A DNA stretch of 27,836 nucleotides from a virus, in IMG/VR virus record IMGVR_UViG_3300009285_007606, positions 1 through 27,836 of that record; one strand, given 5' to 3'. Positions within the stretch are counted from its first letter, which is position 1. Each line of letters opens with the position of its first letter. Positions 15,317 to 27,836 of this stretch are shown in pieces. The position numbers and the translations under genes were made by a program. The notes beneath the pieces were generated by a model. It saw only the letters and a list, made by a program, of their open reading frames with translations. It was not told where the DNA came from and did no database searches.

Positions 15317-15346
15317 ATCATACAGAAATGCTTATGGACGTGTCAA
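15317..15346 (-). promoter_or_regulatory. Promoter TTGACA-18-TATGAT
   Basis: The -35 TTGACA lies at 15346-15341 and overlaps the stop region of the glycosyltransferase gene. TATGAT lies at 15322-15317. Start is expected near 15310, about two bases ahead of the ATG at 15308, giving a near-leaderless mRNA for the small virion-like protein and perhaps the second half of the cassette. Confidence 0.55.
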
Positions 15347-16521
15347 CTACTATCATTAACTTCTTTTTCCAGCATATTCAAAAACGGCATCCATTTTGTA
15401 TTCCAGACAAGCTCGAAATCGAAGTTATCAACCACAAACTTTCTAGCCTCTCTGCCCATCTCCTCCCGTTCCCCAGTGCTCATTCCATACATTTTATCCA
15501 TTAATTCGTACAAATGTTGTGTATCGGGTACAGCCACATAAGAGCTGAGGGGGGTGTATCTTTTATCCGCTACTCTTATCTTAAAACCCGTCTTTCCATC
15601 AATTACCAAGTCTCGCATAGCCGTAAAATCAGTAGCAATTACAGGAACCTCGCATGCCTGAGCTTCGACAAACGGCACTCCAAAGCCTTCGTTGGTTGAT
15701 GGCAAAACAAATGTGTCCATTGCGCTATAAACCTTCGCCATATCGTGGGGTTGGATATGATACCTATGATCGTAATCTCGCACGGCAAATAGGGCATCGG
15801 CAATATCAAGACTTTTAGCATACTGCTCTATAGGAAACCCTCCCTCCTGACTCAACGGAGTGTGAAAATATATCCCCGTATCGGGGTGCTTTCCATGAAC
15901 CTTCGCGAATGCATCTAGTAAATACTGAAATCCCTTACGCGGCGGGTTATCCTTATTTGCCCCCACTATCCCATATAAAAAGATGTCGTTTGGGATACTT
16001 AGCTGCTTTCTTATCTCGGCCTTGTCACACTTTTTATATATGTCGGTCTGGACCGTGTGCGGTATATACGTGGAGTGCATACCAATACGTTTTAGTTCCC
16101 TATAACCAAACGGGGAGTAGGTGACAATCCGATAAGCCATCCTGAGTCTCTCCTGGATTGCCGGCGGTATGGGTTCGTGATCAATGGGTATAATCGGTAC
16201 CCAACGCCTACCCTCGGCATCAAGCCTCTTAAAGGTATCAATGTTTAGTGTCCATATATCCTGTAGTGTAAAGGTGACGTCGGAGTTAAAGTGCTTACCA
16301 TGGGTGAGCATAGCATCATCGCCCCAAATACTACCCATTCTGGGGTAAAACATTATTCCATCAAGATTGATTAAACCACCCTCAAGGCCGTGAAAAGATA
16401 CACAAGCTGTTGGAAACCCTGCCTTAACCATCGCAGGCAAGAACTGACGGGCTTGTTGAGCATAACCAGAGTTTGCCCAGGGCGCGTTTGTGTTAACCAG
16501 TATTCTAAGCTTTCTTTCCAT
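15343..16521 (-). CDS. GT4 family GT-B glycosyltransferase
   Basis: A 392-residue retaining-type glycosyltransferase. The N-terminal Rossmann half begins LRILVNTNAPWANSGYA with the acceptor-loop pattern seen in GT4 enzymes. GANKDNPPRKG at 188-198 is the donor phosphate-binding region (K196). NEGFGVPFVEAQACEVPV at 277-294 is the EX7E motif (E278 and E286). The length is normal for the family. It would transfer a nucleotide-activated hexose in the host cytoplasm. Its start overlaps the GT8-like gene by 17 nt, so the two are translated together. Donor and acceptor cannot be told from sequence. Confidence 0.92.
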   Translation of the reverse strand: MERKLRILVNTNAPWANSGYAQQARQFLPAMVKAGFPTACVSFHGLEGGLINLDGIMFYPRMGSIWGDDAMLTHGKHFNSDVTFTLQDIWTLNIDTFKRLDAEGRRWVPIIPIDHEPIPPAIQERLRMAYRIVTYSPFGYRELKRIGMHSTYIPHTVQTDIYKKCDKAEIRKQLSIPNDIFLYGIVGANKDNPPRKGFQYLLDAFAKVHGKHPDTGIYFHTPLSQEGGFPIEQYAKSLDIADALFAVRDYDHRYHIQPHDMAKVYSAMDTFVLPSTNEGFGVPFVEAQACEVPVIATDFTAMRDLVIDGKTGFKIRVADKRYTPLSSYVAVPDTQHLYELMDKMYGMSTGEREEMGREARKFVVDNFDFELVWNTKWMPFLNMLEKEVNDSS

Positions 16522-17296
16522 TATCAGATGTCAGCCACTCAACGTGACGTATCATTTCCTCATTAAACCAAATACGCGGACTTTTTGAATCATACCCACC
16601 GCCAGCGTAGTGCCATACCTTAATTTTTAACCCCTTATCTGGATAGTTGTCTTCGCCAACAGGAAGAATAACCTCACCATTTACAACCTTCATGTGGACA
16701 CCTTCCCCTTTAGCCACCAACCCATGCCAGCAGTAATAGTTACTAATGGGGTCATAATCATCAAAACACTTAACATTATAGCTACCAAAGTGACACAAAA
16801 TGTTTAATATTCCCTGTTCGGCCATCGGCATCCCGTTAAAAAGCCCAGACAAGCACAATTTGTGCCAATGATTCACAAAACCCTTGTTTCTCATGGCAAC
16901 AAAACCGTTGTTATAGTACCTATTAGCAGGTATGGATAGGAGAGTGATAAAACCAAACTTCGGGGGATCAACTCTATTGATATTTAGCACCACACCGATA
17001 TCGTAATCGTAAAGACTGACACACTCCCAAAGATAGGATAGGTCGCCCATAATATATTGGTCGGCATCCAGTTTTAGAACAAAATCATATCCCTCATCCA
17101 TAAATCTTTTAGCAAGGATGGGGGTAGCCCTATAGAAAAAAGACTTATCATTGGCTATATAACCTTCCAACTCCTCCCCAGTCAGTACATAAAGCGGCAG
17201 ATCGTCTTCACTATGGAACTTTCGTAGTGAGTTCTCCATCTGTTTGGCATAAAAGAGATTATTCTTATCAGCTATAGTGAAGGCTATCTTCCTCAT
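16505..17296 (-). CDS. GT8-like glycosyltransferase
   Basis: A 263-residue GT-A enzyme. FVLKLDADQYIMGDL at 72-86 contains the DxD metal site (D77, D79). YYNNGFVAM at 127-135 and AEQGILN at 159-165 match acceptor and donor motifs of GT8 and related sugar transferases, and VWHYAGGG at 227-234 gives the C-terminal metal-binding His. It probably adds a sugar from a UDP donor. It overlaps the FkbM gene by four bases (ATGA) and the GT4 gene by 17 nt, forming a tightly coupled trio. It could also be described as a general hexosyltransferase; the GT8 label is by motif. Confidence 0.85.
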   Translation of the reverse strand: MRKIAFTIADKNNLFYAKQMENSLRKFHSEDDLPLYVLTGEELEGYIANDKSFFYRATPILAKRFMDEGYDFVLKLDADQYIMGDLSYLWECVSLYDYDIGVVLNINRVDPPKFGFITLLSIPANRYYNNGFVAMRNKGFVNHWHKLCLSGLFNGMPMAEQGILNILCHFGSYNVKCFDDYDPISNYYCWHGLVAKGEGVHMKVVNGEVILPVGEDNYPDKGLKIKVWHYAGGGYDSKSPRIWFNEEMIRHVEWLTSDNGKKA

Positions 17297-17955
17297 GTTC
17301 TTACCGCGCCTATTAACTTTGCACTTGAGGGAATAATCCTAGTCTTAAAACCATAATCATGTAGGGTAGTTATTAGTTGCGTTGGACTTCTGGCAGACCA
17401 GTCATGATATTCAACAACCATAGCATCAATCTTATCCGCCACCTTCTCAAACCCCTCCCCACCTATTACATCTACCTCCGCTCCCTCTATGTCCAGCTTC
17501 AAAAAATGAACGTGATCAATGCTGTATTGAGTAAATAGTGTGTCCATTCTAGTGGCGGTTACGTTTTCTATTCCGAGTTTAGGGTCACCCACAACTTTAC
17601 TCAAAGAAAACATTGTAGTGTTAGCATTATGATGCAGTTGCATCTTCTTATCCTCGTAAAAGATGGCCTTCTCAACAACAGTTACCTTATCCTCCATATC
17701 GTTAAAAGATAACATTTGCTTAAAGACCTTTAGATGCTGTTGTGACGGCTCGATGGCATATATCTTTTTGGCAAACGGATATACGTAAAAAGTAAAAAGA
17801 CCGACGTTGGCGCCAATATCAACGATCGTCAAATCACTGCGCCCATCCAGATACATGGCATATATTTTATCGATATATATTTCCTTTAATATATCTGGTA
17901 TAAAACTACTCTTGAAGTCTTCAAAGAATATTCCCTGCATAACAGAATGCCCCAT
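17293..17955 (-). CDS. FkbM-type methyltransferase
   Basis: A 220-residue SAM-dependent O-methyltransferase. TIVDIGANVGLFTFY (43-57) is motif I, the acidic ribose ligand is E69 in AIEPS, HFLKLDIEGAEVDVI (150-164) is the FkbM hallmark, and VVEYHDW (180-186) follows. Family members methylate hydroxyls on sugars and secondary metabolites. With two glycosyltransferases directly downstream it probably caps or decorates a glycan. It is the first gene after a strong promoter, and its leader folds around the start codon; codons 2-5 form one arm of a 12-bp stem. An ATG at codon 6 would give a start just past that stem. Confidence 0.9.
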   Translation of the reverse strand: MGHSVMQGIFFEDFKSSFIPDILKEIYIDKIYAMYLDGRSDLTIVDIGANVGLFTFYVYPFAKKIYAIEPSQQHLKVFKQMLSFNDMEDKVTVVEKAIFYEDKKMQLHHNANTTMFSLSKVVGDPKLGIENVTATRMDTLFTQYSIDHVHFLKLDIEGAEVDVIGGEGFEKVADKIDAMVVEYHDWSARSPTQLITTLHDYGFKTRIIPSSAKLIGAVRT

Positions 17956-24298: not shown

Positions 24299-25625
24299 TC
24301 TCTGACCCTGACAGATCGTATCCTTTGAGCTGGCGCAGGTATTCCTGTCTTAACGGCGATGGCTTCTGCGCCACTACAAACTTGGGCACTTCTCTCAATT
24401 CCCATACGGCAAGCGCATGCGCCATAACTACATCGTCATTATAACCCTCTCTGGCATTATATCGTATTTTTCCCGTTAAAGTAATCTCATAACTATAGTT
24501 ATCGAACTCCAGCAGGGTTTCTGGTGTGCTTATCATCGAGAACTTTCTTTGCTCAATCCATATTGATAGTTTCTCAACTAACTCCCTCTTTGTGATTTCG
24601 GTTATCTTAAAGGGTAAAACAGGAACATTATCTCTTATTAGGTCGTCAGCTATAGGATCACCAACTCCTGTAGCATCAACCACAACTAAAGCGTTGTTAT
24701 AGTATTTTGATATTGCCCTGATCTTCTTTTTAACAAACGGCCACTCAATAGTATTAAACCTATCTTGATATACCTGCTGATTGGTTTTCCTATCATAAAC
24801 TACTAGGACCGTGTAATCCTGCACTTTCGCCAAATCCGCACCGACCACATAGATATGGTCTAATAACGGCTTTTGGGGTGTGGCGGTAATTATATCGCGA
24901 ACACCTCTGAAAATGGCTCCCTCGCCCTCCAAAAACTCGCATTCGTATTCCTGATTATAGAAAGCCAGCGAGTGCGCGGTACGCCTAGAATTTTCTAATT
25001 GTTGTGCGGCCAGAACACCAGATTGTGACGCTTTTAGAAGCCACGCTCCCCACTCTGTCTCATTACCAGCATTAGCTAAGTTATACAGATCATATAGCTT
25101 TTGCCTACCTTTTGGAGTACCCAGAAACCAGGCCCAACCCCCATTAGCTCTAACTATAGGTTCAAGCGTTGGCCACACCTCTGTTTTCATCTCATCGTAC
25201 TCATCAAGTACAAAACCGAGTGGCCCAGCACCTCGCAACCTGGCAGGGTTGTCTGCGCCTTTAAGCTGAAGGTACGCGCCGTTTTTGAAATACACCACAA
25301 GCTCCGCCTCATTCCTCTTAGCAACTAGTTCCTCAGGGATGATGGAGAAAAGCATTTGTGGATCGCGCCAGACTGCATCTTTCGCTTCTGAATATGTAGG
25401 AAAAACATGCCAATAAGGGCCGGGGCGAATATGCGCCTGCTTAACAAGCTCATTTATCGCTGTTGTTGTCTTTCTCGCCCTCCTGTGCCATATCAACACC
25501 TTGAATCTCTTCGAACTTCGGAACAACACCTCCTGTTGCCACAGGTGCATCCCCTGTGGATTTGGGAACACTATTGGGGAGGAATCCAATTCCAGCGAGG
25601 ATTTGTAGCTTAATTGGCTGCCCAC
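24279..25625 (-). CDS. terL: Terminase large subunit
   Basis: A 448-residue packaging ATPase and nuclease. WHRRARKTT at 46-54 is the Walker A region; the usual Gly before Lys is Arg here (R51). Walker B is LGFVLDEYDEM (136-146, D141 E142) and coupling motif WAWFLGTPKG follows (164-173). The RNase H-like nuclease shows D264 (VGADLAK), D317 (VVVDATG) and D397/D398 (YNDDVVMAHAL). The GTG at 25625 is supported by GGAGGTGA nine bases upstream, which makes it overlap the small subunit by 176 nt. An ATG at 25550 has no ribosome site. The N-terminal QEVLFRSSKRFKVLIW is terminase-like, so part of the overlap must be dual-coding. Confidence 0.93.
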   Translation of the reverse strand: MGSQLSYKSSLELDSSPIVFPNPQGMHLWQQEVLFRSSKRFKVLIWHRRARKTTTAINELVKQAHIRPGPYWHVFPTYSEAKDAVWRDPQMLFSIIPEELVAKRNEAELVVYFKNGAYLQLKGADNPARLRGAGPLGFVLDEYDEMKTEVWPTLEPIVRANGGWAWFLGTPKGRQKLYDLYNLANAGNETEWGAWLLKASQSGVLAAQQLENSRRTAHSLAFYNQEYECEFLEGEGAIFRGVRDIITATPQKPLLDHIYVVGADLAKVQDYTVLVVYDRKTNQQVYQDRFNTIEWPFVKKKIRAISKYYNNALVVVDATGVGDPIADDLIRDNVPVLPFKITEITKRELVEKLSIWIEQRKFSMISTPETLLEFDNYSYEITLTGKIRYNAREGYNDDVVMAHALAVWELREVPKFVVAQKPSPLRQEYLRQLKGYDLSGSENDYEAV

Positions 25626-26001
25626 CTTTACCCGTCACCTCCAATCTATTAATCACCGGTATTTTATCCTTTACCTCCAGGGCTGTCCTGACATACTTAT
25701 GTCTTGAGGAATAGTCGGGTGATTTAATAACGTCATTACCCCTAATAAGATACCTATACGCGCTGGTTCCATCCTCCAGTAACTCCGCAAGCTTCTCGTC
25801 GGTAAGCCCAGCATCGTCGAGTAATTGACTCATAGTCTTTTGAATCTTTGCAGTTCTAAGTAATTTTGAGGCGGAGGACGCGGCCGCAGATCGAATGTTA
25901 ACGGCTGGATAGGCTTTCAAATACGCCTCGGTTGCATTTCCCGTTTTCAAATATTCATCAACAAAGAGTCTTTGTGAGGGTTTTAGTGGGTCTTTTTCCA
26001 T
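25450..26001 (-). CDS. terS: Terminase small subunit
   Basis: A 183-residue protein resembling Terminase_2: LKPSQRLFVDEYLKTGNATE, then AYLKAYPA and a helix-turn-helix-like segment (SAAASSASKLLRTAKIQKTM) for packaging-site recognition, a central oligomerisation helix (DEKLAELLEDG) and a low-complexity acidic end. The ATG at 26001 is preferred; a GTG two codons earlier is the alternative. No ribosome site is seen, and a TGATATAGT box ends eight bases before the ATG, so the mRNA may be leaderless. The final 58 codons overlap the large-subunit gene in another frame. Confidence 0.88.
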   Translation of the reverse strand: MEKDPLKPSQRLFVDEYLKTGNATEAYLKAYPAVNIRSAAASSASKLLRTAKIQKTMSQLLDDAGLTDEKLAELLEDGTSAYRYLIRGNDVIKSPDYSSRHKYVRTALEVKDKIPVINRLEVTGKGGQPIKLQILAGIGFLPNSVPKSTGDAPVATGGVVPKFEEIQGVDMAQEGEKDNNSDK

Positions 26002-26009
26002 TACCACAG

Positions 26010-26018
26010 ACTATATCA
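26010..26018 (-). promoter_or_regulatory. Extended -10 box TGATATAGT before terS
   Basis: TATAGT at 26015-26010 preceded by TGA. The box ends eight bases before the ATG at 26001, so transcription would begin within a base or two of the start codon. A poor -35 (TTTATA) lies 17 bases upstream. Confidence 0.5.
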
Positions 26019-26163
26019 CACTACGGTTAACCTATAAAACGAGTACAGCCGTTACTCTTCAGACGAGGCAGGCAAGGGCGCTGCCCATTACCGTGTTTAG
26101 GGGATGTGATCATACCAAGTTCCCATCCGCACTAAAAACCTATACCTTGCCCGCCACATTAGA

Positions 26164-26172
26164 ATTATATCA
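26164..26172 (-). promoter_or_regulatory. Extended -10 box TGATATAAT, terminase leader
   Basis: TATAAT at 26169-26164 with TGA ahead; no -35. Start is expected near 26157, giving a leader of about 155 nt before terS. An ATG lies four bases after the box and opens 20 codons. Confidence 0.5.
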
Positions 26173-26183
26173 CCAAAACAGGC

Positions 26184-26216
26184 TGGGCGGCCATACCTAA
26201 AAAGGGGGGCCGCCCA
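26184..26216 (-). other. 9-bp GC-rich hairpin
   Basis: TGGGCGGCC (26184-26192) and GGCCGCCCA (26208-26216) pair perfectly around 15 nt. On the minus strand it is followed by GCCTGTTTTGG, so it might end a transcript weakly; it lies just upstream of the 26164 promoter. Confidence 0.45.
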
Positions 26217-26302
26217 TCACTGCCTCTGGATTAGGTTCGTGAAAATACCAACCCAAACCGAGGACATTCTAACATGGAATAATAAGTGGACGATATTTCT
26301 GT

Positions 26303-26340
26303 AGTGATTTAAGTGATTTTTTAGTGAGTTATTTGTGAAG
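26303..26340. repeat. Iteron-like AGTGATTT direct repeats
   Basis: AGTGATTT at 26303-26310 and 26312-26319, AGTGAGTT at 26323-26330 and TGTGAAG at 26334-26340, spaced 9-11 bases in an AT-rich tract. Helically phased direct repeats of this kind bind replication initiators or terminases; here the role is inferred only. Confidence 0.4.
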
Positions 26341-26406
26341 AGACATTAAGCGCATCGGAGTTTATAACCAACGTTCTTTTTGGTAATAATCATTGCTTCA
26401 ATGTCT
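26341..26406 (-). other. Long bulged hairpin
   Basis: AGACATTAAGC (26341-26351) pairs with GCTT-c-AATGTCT (26395-26406), 11 bp with one bulge. Inside, TTAT-a-ACCAA (26362-26371) pairs with TTGGT-a-ATAA (26380-26389). A 50-codon frame (26346-26498) crosses it but lacks a ribosome site. Confidence 0.45.
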
Positions 26407-26417
26407 TTAATGGAAAC

Positions 26418-26449
26418 AAAAAAGGTCAAAAACCCGAAAGCCCTTGACC
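26418..26449 (-). terminator. Rho-independent terminator, minus strand
   Basis: On the minus strand GGTCAA, a 14-nt loop and TTGACC are followed by TTTTTTG. It lies 65 nt beyond a stronger terminator and separates the structured-RNA region from the terminase leader. Confidence 0.55.
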
Positions 26450-26514
26450 AATTTTGCGAGACCTTGTATTGTGGTCTACATAAACAACAACACTTCATAT
26501 AATACCGCAATTAA

Positions 26515-26550
26515 AAAAGAACCGCAAGCCAAAAGGCAAGCGGTTCTTTT
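26515..26550 (-). terminator. Strong bidirectional rho-independent terminator
   Basis: AAAAGAACCGC-aa-GCC pairs with GGC-aa-GCGGTTCTTTT around an AAAA loop, 14 bp in all. T-runs flank it on both strands, so it can stop transcription either way. It ends the candidate structured RNA on the minus strand. Confidence 0.85.
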
Positions 26551-26658
26551 TCCTTGTGGTTTATCTTTTCTTTCCCTTGCCCGACCGGAGTTCAAATTGT
26601 GGGGGTCGGTTCACAGAAAAGCCCACAAGCTACACTCGCTTTACAACCCGAATGTAGT

Positions 26659-26697
26659 AAAAAGGAACGGGGCACTCACGTACACCAAGTCCGTTCC
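26659..26697 (-). terminator. Promoter-proximal terminator-like hairpin
   Basis: Minus strand GGAACGG, 20-nt loop, CCGTTCC, then TTTTT. It lies only about 10 nt after the start expected from the 26708-26737 promoter, so it could attenuate that promoter or be a stem of the larger RNA. Confidence 0.45.
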
Positions 26698-26698
26698 C

Positions 26699-26737
26699 CT
26701 CTGCTAGATTATAGCAGAGCTGAAGGGGGTACTGCAA
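26699..26737 (-). promoter_or_regulatory. Promoter TTGCAG-18-TATAAT with palindromic operator
   Basis: TTGCAG at 26737-26732 and TATAAT at 26713-26708 on the minus strand. An 8-bp perfect inverted repeat, CTCTGCTA and TAGCAGAG with a 5-bp centre (26699-26719), is centred on the -10 box, the layout of a repressor operator. Confidence 0.5.
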
Positions 26738-27015
26738 CGATTCGGAGATAAAACCGGAAAAAGTCGCCAAGAATTAAAGTACATGGATACGGAGTACTAG
26801 CCTTCTTTGTCCCCGAATAACTATTTAGCGGAACGAATTGAAGTTTTAAGCTACTCGTCGAGTACTCTGAACGGTCGTGATCCAAAAGGATTATGTTTTT
26901 AGAGCGGGTGCGGTGTCCGGAAAACCTTGTTGAAAGGGGTTCTTTGTCATGGACCTGCCCATACCGCACCCGCCTCTGGAAACACGCGCAAACACACACG
27001 TGTCCCATCGAAACC

Positions 27016-27024
27016 ATTATATCA
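27016..27024 (-). promoter_or_regulatory. Extended -10 box TGATATAAT
   Basis: TATAAT at 27021-27016; its TGA is the stop codon of the zinc-ribbon gene, as at 13121. Start is expected near 27009, at the first hairpin of the candidate RNA. An ATG lies seven bases after the box. Confidence 0.55.
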
Positions 27025-27162
27025 CTCCCTCCTCTTTCTGCACACAGGTACTCGCATATCCCACCCACAACTAGGACACCTGTAAAAACGTGTGGGGTGG
27101 ATGTGCACCATACATCTTGGGCAGTTCTTGGTTGGCTTTCTTCCTTTTTTGCCGGCGGCCAT
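27022..27162 (-). CDS. 46-residue zinc-ribbon protein
   Basis: A small gene missed by length cut-offs. The protein is basic, MAAGKKGRKPTKNC..., with two CxxC knuckles: C14-C17 (NCPRCM) and C29-C32 (RCPSCGWDM), 11 residues apart, giving a four-Cys zinc ribbon, and a basic tail ending CRKRRE. Proteins of this shape bind nucleic acid or RNA polymerase; a transcription regulator of the late genes is possible but unproven. GGAAAGGA lies nine bases upstream of the ATG, and an extended -10 box sits at 27212. The TGA is shared with the next promoter. Confidence 0.8.
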   Translation of the reverse strand: MAAGKKGRKPTKNCPRCMVHIHPTRFYRCPSCGWDMRVPVCRKRRE

Positions 27163-27191
27163 GCTATATGTCCTTTCCCGTGCCGTTATTT

Positions 27192-27220
27192 TTGTTGCTC
27201 AACAAGGTGGAAGTATATCA
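27192..27220 (-). promoter_or_regulatory. Extended -10 box TGATATACT with palindrome at start
   Basis: TATACT at 27217-27212 preceded by TGA. TTGTTG-ct-CAACAA (27192-27205), a perfect palindrome, covers the expected start near 27205 and could be an operator or a 5' hairpin for the zinc-ribbon mRNA. Confidence 0.45.
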
Positions 27221-27231
27221 CGGCCACCGCC

Positions 27232-27387
27232 TCACGGGGTTAGTGAACTCTGCTGTAGATACTTTTCATAAGGCGATAGCGTATGCTCAAGTTTGTAATT
27301 TCGCAAGATAATGAAAATATAAATCACCGCCGCAATTCCCAGCATTGTTACTAGAATTTTCACGGCGGCAAGTATTTTTCGCGTCAT
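27232..27387 (-). CDS. 51-residue single-helix membrane protein
   Basis: A small gene not in long-ORF lists. The protein starts MTRKILAAVKILVTMLG, one transmembrane helix spanning about residues 5-28, followed by a polar tail (RNYKLEHTLSPYEKYLQQ). I do not recognise the family. The ATG lies exactly six bases after a TGATATTAT box, so the mRNA is probably leaderless; no ribosome site precedes it. It is the first leftward gene from the divergent control region, so it may be expressed early or constitutively. A role in superinfection exclusion is possible, from size and topology only. Confidence 0.7.
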   Translation of the reverse strand: MTRKILAAVKILVTMLGIAAVIYIFIILRNYKLEHTLSPYEKYLQQSSLTP

Positions 27388-27393
27388 GTCAAC

Positions 27394-27402
27394 ATAATAT
27401 CA
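27394..27402 (-). promoter_or_regulatory. Extended -10 box TGATATTAT, leaderless geometry
   Basis: TATTAT at 27399-27394 with TGA ahead, six bases before the ATG at 27387; predicted start on the A of the ATG. It is divergent from the plus-strand promoter 38 bp away. Confidence 0.5.
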
Positions 27403-27439
27403 TAACAACTACAGCACGTACACACAGACGGTGGGGGTA

Positions 27440-27468
27440 TTGACAACACACATCGCGCGGTGTACACT
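27440..27468 (+). promoter_or_regulatory. Rightward promoter TTGACA-17-TACACT
   Basis: Consensus TTGACA at 27440-27445 and TACACT at 27463-27468 with 17-nt spacing. Start is expected near 27475, about 22 nt before the first plus-strand gene. It is probably the early promoter, read by host sigma70-type polymerase. Confidence 0.75.
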
Positions 27469-27496
27469 GGTTATGGTTGGAAGGTGGTGATGGCAA

Positions 27497-27727
27497 ATGC
27501 CTGAGGGTTTGCAAAAACTAATAACTAGCTACGAATATAGCTTGCTCTTTCCGGGATTATACTGGGACAGAGTGGATGCAAAAAAAGTTGGTGACATATT
27601 AACATGGCAGGAAGAGTATAACGACAACACCTATTCTTTGAGAGATTTATTCAAGATGGGCGGGAGACAAGTATCGGAGTTGTGGAGTAGTATGGCTCGC
27701 ACAATAAACGATCCATCCGTATTATAG
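27497..27727 (+). CDS. Early protein of unknown function
   Basis: A 76-residue soluble protein, first gene of the rightward unit. It is rich in Tyr, Trp, Leu and Asp (YEYSLLFPGLYWDRVDAKKV, GDILTWQEEYNDNTYSL) with a basic helical C-terminal half (KMGGRQVSELWSSMARTI) that might bind DNA. I do not recognise it. GGAAGGTGGTG lies 7-8 bases upstream. Between that site and the start, an ATG opens a four-codon frame (27490-27504) that overlaps the real start, possibly to tune initiation. Confidence 0.75.
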   Translation: MPEGLQKLITSYEYSLLFPGLYWDRVDAKKVGDILTWQEEYNDNTYSLRDLFKMGGRQVSELWSSMARTINDPSVL

Positions 27728-27795
27728 TTAACTTTAGTTTCTGGACAGGAAAAGCACTCATGAATCACAGGCCAAGCGCCGGAGGAGGTGAGACC

Positions 27796-27836
27796 ATGAC
27801 CAACATTCGTTTCTTCGACGAGCCGAGAGGCACGCC
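27796..27836 (+). CDS. Start of second rightward gene, truncated by window edge
   Basis: The ATG at 27796 follows GGAGGAGGTGA with ideal spacing, and 13 codons are visible (MTNIRFFDEPRGT) before the window ends. An in-frame ATG at 27760 lacks a ribosome site. It is too short to assign. It lies 68 bases after the previous stop and is probably co-transcribed from the 27440 promoter. Confidence 0.7.
   Translation, partial: MTNIRFFDEPRGT

Follow-up and report, generated by a model that had tools for sequence, protein, structure and literature searches.

The minus strand between positions 27009 and 26511 of a 27.8-kb linear IMG/VR virus record, which was analyzed over its whole length and is called the window here, likely represents a noncoding transcription unit in the orientation of the late genes, since a promoter and a terminator are present and a coding signal is absent. 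Our leading reading, to which we give slightly less than an even chance, is that this unit is predicted to be transcribed into a functional stand-alone RNA specific to the phage lineage. A first-pass annotation of the same DNA had gone further and suggested a large ornate RNA class comparable to GOLLD and ROOL. We found no Rfam match, no tRNA neighbors, little global structure apart from the terminator and no homolog; a new ornate class is little supported, and evidence that the RNA forms a class is at present nil. What stands of that interpretation is a probably transcribed, noncoding unit.

Genome Context and Promoter Motif

The record derives from a tailed phage whose late genes are all found on the minus strand. 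They encode the terminase small and large subunits (TerS and TerL), the portal, the major head protein, an SU10-type adaptor, tail proteins and an amidase. Two glycosyltransferases and one methyltransferase are located among the structural genes (15343-17955, minus). The candidate RNA (26511-27009) lies upstream of the TerS gene (25450-26001, minus; Pfam Terminase_2, 8e-12), in a nearly gene-free block at ~26010-27480. The block contains two minus-strand ORFs and no others, one for a 51-aa membrane protein (27387-27232) and one for a 46-aa zinc-ribbon protein (27022-27162). The zinc-ribbon ORF was assigned from its sequence and from weak Pfam zinc-ribbon matches below cut-off. It is directly upstream of the predicted RNA, and its stop codon overlaps the promoter. 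A plus-strand gene starts at 27497, behind a sigma-70-like promoter.

The window contains the extended -10 promoter TGATATAAT in three exact copies, each on the minus strand and one of them at 27024-27016. A looser form of the motif, TGNTA[TG][ACT][AG]T, ends 6-8 nt ahead of the ATG at 6 of the 28 gene starts, compared with 0.085 expected from shuffled upstream sequences. The gene starts that combine TGNTATNNT, a 6-8-nt spacing and an ATG are those at 2085, 2270, 9393, 13108, 26001 and 27387 (minus). Given this spacing, transcription would begin on the ATG or directly beside it, and these genes thus apparently are leaderless. Because the same motif recurs at these gene starts, the copy at 27024-27016, already proposed as a promoter in the first-pass annotation, is a credible phage promoter, from which transcription is predicted to begin at ~27009-27008. 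Among related phage records (see below), it is mainly G004 that has several similar motif-ATG pairs ahead of long frames.

TerS has a promoter motif of its own (TGATATAGT), located 8 nt before its ATG. Farther upstream, in the segment 26008-26173 (minus), there is a second exact GTGATATAAT, with the copy at 26172-26164. Between it and the TerS promoter lies a strong, long stem (GGCGGGCAAGG / CCTTGCCTGCC; -46 kcal/mol when folded), and this stem region is possibly another structured leader. A likeness between the candidate RNA and the 26166-26008 leader was considered and rejected (local alignment, p = 0.15).

Terminators and Coding Potential

At the end of the unit, the terminator that had been proposed is indeed present. 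This intrinsic terminator, T1 (26552-26513, minus), consists of 13 bp, a 2 × 2 internal loop and then 3 bp. The T1 hairpin has a U-tract on both strands and dominates the fold signal of the whole region. A second terminator, T2 (26424-26449, minus), has 11 bp with T6. Together with a TATTAT box and two hairpins, T2 makes up a segment between the RNA and TerS (26418-26505, minus), which is a possible ~80-nt transcription unit. Inside the candidate RNA, folding places a GUGA-tetraloop hairpin, followed by U5, at 26658-26698 (minus); it could act as an internal terminator, giving an RNA of ~350 nt.

An ATG at 27008 opens a frame of 99 codons, a length with a probability of about 0.012 in shuffles, and the ATG is found 7 nt behind the -10, as at other gene starts of this phage. 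One could thus propose a leaderless mRNA for a 99-residue protein. The codon usage of the frame is, however, -0.21 per codon, compared with +0.13 ± 0.05 for phage genes and -0.18 ± 0.10 for wrong frames, and its period-3 power is 0.18, where the 5th percentile of the genes is 1.5. We found no protein family match and, in the 15 related records that share the head protein, no tblastn match. In addition, a 12-bp hairpin sits at the start codon. Judged by codon usage, 3-base periodicity and family search, the 99 codons do not form a protein gene, in agreement with the first-pass annotation. We rejected the leaderless protein, which we regard as very improbable, because its codon usage and 3-base periodicity are like those of noncoding DNA.

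Predicted RNA Structure

The predicted noncoding transcript (26511-27009, minus; about 495 nt), as bounded by promoter and terminator, has a fold z score of -4.45 over the whole region, and the plus strand has one of -4.83, most of which comes from the terminator. Without the terminator, the minus strand gives z -1.5 and -1.9 in two runs, marginally better than shuffles, and the plus strand gives z -2.7 and -2.5, as stable as the minus strand or more so. A z of -1.5 is attained by 14% of coding windows of the same length. There are 5 strong hairpins, compared with 3.9 ± 1.2 in shuffles.

Local structure is found in two islands, each with a better score than all, or almost all, of its shuffles (p ≤ 0.0033). 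The island at 26895-27009 (z -3.1) contains a 12-bp hairpin directly after the predicted start (26979-27006, minus) and a long stem (26901-26977, minus), in which 11 perfect bp, with a bulge, enclose a ~48-nt loop. The long stem corresponds to an inverted repeat (I7) with 100% identity over 11 nt; for 26900-26978, z is -3.1 on the minus strand and -4.8 on the plus strand. The island at 26630-26722 (z -4.3) folds into three hairpins in series, namely a 9-bp hairpin (26630-26657, minus), the GUGA-tetraloop hairpin described above and an 8-bp perfect palindrome, CTCTGCTA-TAATC-TAGCAGAG (26699-26719, minus). The palindrome has a second TGCTATAAT at its center and may be a hairpin or, alternatively, an operator over a possible internal promoter.

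About ten successive hairpins had been counted over most of the strand. We find support for about six plus the terminator, contained in the two islands and a possible pseudoknot, and the 173 nt between the islands (26723-26895, minus) show no structure signal (z +0.14). The H-type pseudoknot that had been suggested at 26581-26628 (minus) can be drawn with stems of 7 and 6 bp, but its score is attained by 2.3% of shuffles, and 26556-26629 without the pseudoknot has no energy signal (z -0.15). The 9-bp hairpin does contain the G-U pair on the minus strand from which the transcribed strand had been deduced. A single pair nevertheless fails as general strand evidence, because G-U pairs are equally frequent on both strands (18 on the minus, 18 on the plus) and the plus strand folds at least as well. 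Promoter and terminator are the better guide to the transcribed strand.

Comparison with Known RNA Classes

We compared the region with all 4227 Rfam families, which we take to include HEARO, using cmscan. No family reached its gathering score in the window, and GOLLD, ROOL, OLE and HEARO gave no match up to E = 5 in 25900-27836. The best permissive match, to IsrM (E 0.01), was rejected, as its 19.2 bits fall far short of the cut-off of 376. In 238 kb of related phage sequence, again no Rfam family was found at gathering score. Because no Rfam family matches, the region, as far as covariance models can tell, is not a recognizable GOLLD, ROOL, OLE or HEARO member.

The candidate resembles GOLLD and ROOL in being phage-encoded and noncoding and in having a possible pseudoknot; it differs from both by its 173 nt without structure signal and by having no homologs in our searches. 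ROOL RNAs are somewhat longer than the candidate with its about 500 nt. The extensive secondary structure and multiple pseudoknots that characterize ROOL are not seen here, where the global z without the terminator is as weak as given above and one possible pseudoknot is present. GOLLD, ROOL and OLE are included in the Rfam library; GOLLD and ROOL frequently have tRNA islands nearby, and many GOLLD RNAs are longer than 800 nt (PMC12286853). Length and tRNA proximity are usual features of GOLLD and not strict criteria, but the candidate differs in both, with about 495 nt and 0 tRNA genes in the window, as well as in the missing covariance-model match.

Omega RNAs (HEARO, IS605-type) also come to mind, as the possible pseudoknot has a small zinc-ribbon ORF next to it, and this 46-aa ORF matches the TnpB zinc domain below threshold. 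In contrast to omega RNA loci, there is no Rfam match here, the ORF is self-contained, and the window has no further match to the TnpB zinc domain. We rejected a TnpB/omega-RNA origin, because its sole support is this sub-threshold match to a generic zinc ribbon.

Most bacterial small RNAs are shorter than our ~495-nt candidate. A phage-type promoter, an intrinsic terminator at the end and no protein, as expected for a phage noncoding RNA gene, are all found. In the same features, the region is similar to phage-encoded small regulatory RNAs, which, as far as they are outlined in a review, are a loose functional kind (PMC12197685).

Search for Related Sequences

TerL, portal and MCP searches yielded 18 other virus records, of which 15 have a related head protein; L003 has a common TerL and portal, and L004 and L005 have a more distant TerL. 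Using blastn, we found only short chance words shared between the region and these 18 records. The 15 head-protein records gave no match to the region in tblastx or tblastn, and a single-sequence covariance model built from 26556-26722 found nothing in the head-protein records, one near-duplicate left aside. By blastn, neither GenBank phages nor PLSDB plasmids matched the region. We also scanned IMG/VR and GTDB genomes for exact patterns, a weak method for finding homologs, with patterns taken from the pseudoknot, the long stem, the loop of the 9-bp hairpin and the tetraloop hairpin; the scans returned isolated matches with no extended similarity. The best of these (27 nt, 92%; record L092) surrounds the 17-mer by which that record had been selected. 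We found no relatives of the zinc-ribbon ORF, and none of the MCP in genomes. An RNA, if there is one, is specific to this phage lineage as judged by these searches.

At this place before the terminase, the relatives carry sugar-nucleotide epimerases, aminotransferases, transketolase/thiamine-diphosphate enzymes or short unknown genes. The pre-terminase position is an accessory slot that varies among relatives. Enzyme genes just upstream of the terminase are found in L083 (474-2572), L069 (18634-20000), L070 (204-2460) and L072 (13533-14827); they comprise an epimerase, DegT and class I aminotransferases and a split transketolase or thiamine-diphosphate enzyme, which suggests surface-sugar synthesis.

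Discussion

If the candidate is a stand-alone RNA, transcription would start at ~27009, driven by an extended -10 promoter of the phage, and would end at the intrinsic terminator upstream of the terminase genes, yielding about 495 nt, or alternatively at the internal U5 hairpin, yielding about 350 nt. Compact hairpin domains might then protect the RNA ends and leave a middle of ~170 nt open. Such an RNA could act in trans, with the open middle or the loops base-pairing with, or binding to, a host or phage target at a late stage. An exact copy of a motif enriched at the phage's own gene starts, a terminator, a 99-codon frame that is noncoding and has no family match, and local domains at z -3.1 and -4.3 all argue for a stand-alone RNA. 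Against it stand the absence of a homolog in the 18 related records, the weak global z without the terminator, a plus strand that is equally or more stable, and the possibility that the terminator merely closes the upstream zinc-ribbon operon. It seems improbable to us that the region founds a new class of ~500-nt phage RNAs, with two compact end domains, a pseudoknot, an open middle and a late-stage role beside the packaging genes, and with close homologs that would lie outside the collections searched here.

We weighed the stand-alone RNA against three further explanations. The region could be a leader or attenuator of the late operon, where transcription, starting at 27009 or, farther upstream, at the genes for the small membrane and zinc-ribbon proteins, would pass through a structured leader and stop at T1 and T2 in tandem; read-through into the terminase and structural genes would depend on a phage factor or on the leader RNA. 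Lambda Q and the HK022 put sites allow read-through past terminators into late genes, and the lambdoid late leaders (lambda pR' with Q; HK022 put) likewise consist of a structured leader and then terminators before the late genes. The common strand, the position just upstream of TerS and TerL, the two consecutive intrinsic terminators that separate the promoter from the late genes and the hairpins at the transcript 5' end are consistent with such an arrangement. However, no Q-like or other antitermination factor was identified, relatives carry genes in this position, and TerS differs from the lambdoid case in having its own promoter motif. With this motif and another exact copy at 26172-26164, read-through would not be needed. 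We consider a late leader unlikely. Of about equal weight, and unlikely as well, is an ordinary spacer, where a promoter and a terminator would lie in an accessory, gene-poor slot, and the other hairpins would be products of chance or decay with no RNA function. A strong hairpin count in the shuffle range, a pseudoknot at p about 0.02, the small whole-molecule z and the variability of the slot among relatives point in this direction, but two islands that exceed shuffles, an 11-bp perfect inverted repeat and an exact promoter motif that is improbable by chance do not.

Control at the DNA level is a further explanation, in which the palindromes (TACTCGTCGAGTA at 26852-26864 and CTCTGCTATAATCTAGCAGAG over a second -10) would be operators, or the block would be a recognition site for the small terminase in packaging. 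The palindromes exist, the block adjoins the terminase genes, and both strands fold equally well, as would be expected of DNA palindromes. The 13-mer palindrome is not repeated, save for one match with two mismatches inside the terminase gene, however, and no iterated sites were found; we regard a DNA site as improbable. A stand-alone, lineage-specific RNA remains our preferred, if tentative, reading.

If the region is transcribed, it would add one more orphan RNA to those of phages, from a little-known phage group, and would be a candidate for a role at the late stage. The promoter rule, TGNTATNNT followed after 6-8 nt by ATG, is the more reusable result, as it predicts transcription starts, apparently leaderless ones, in this phage.
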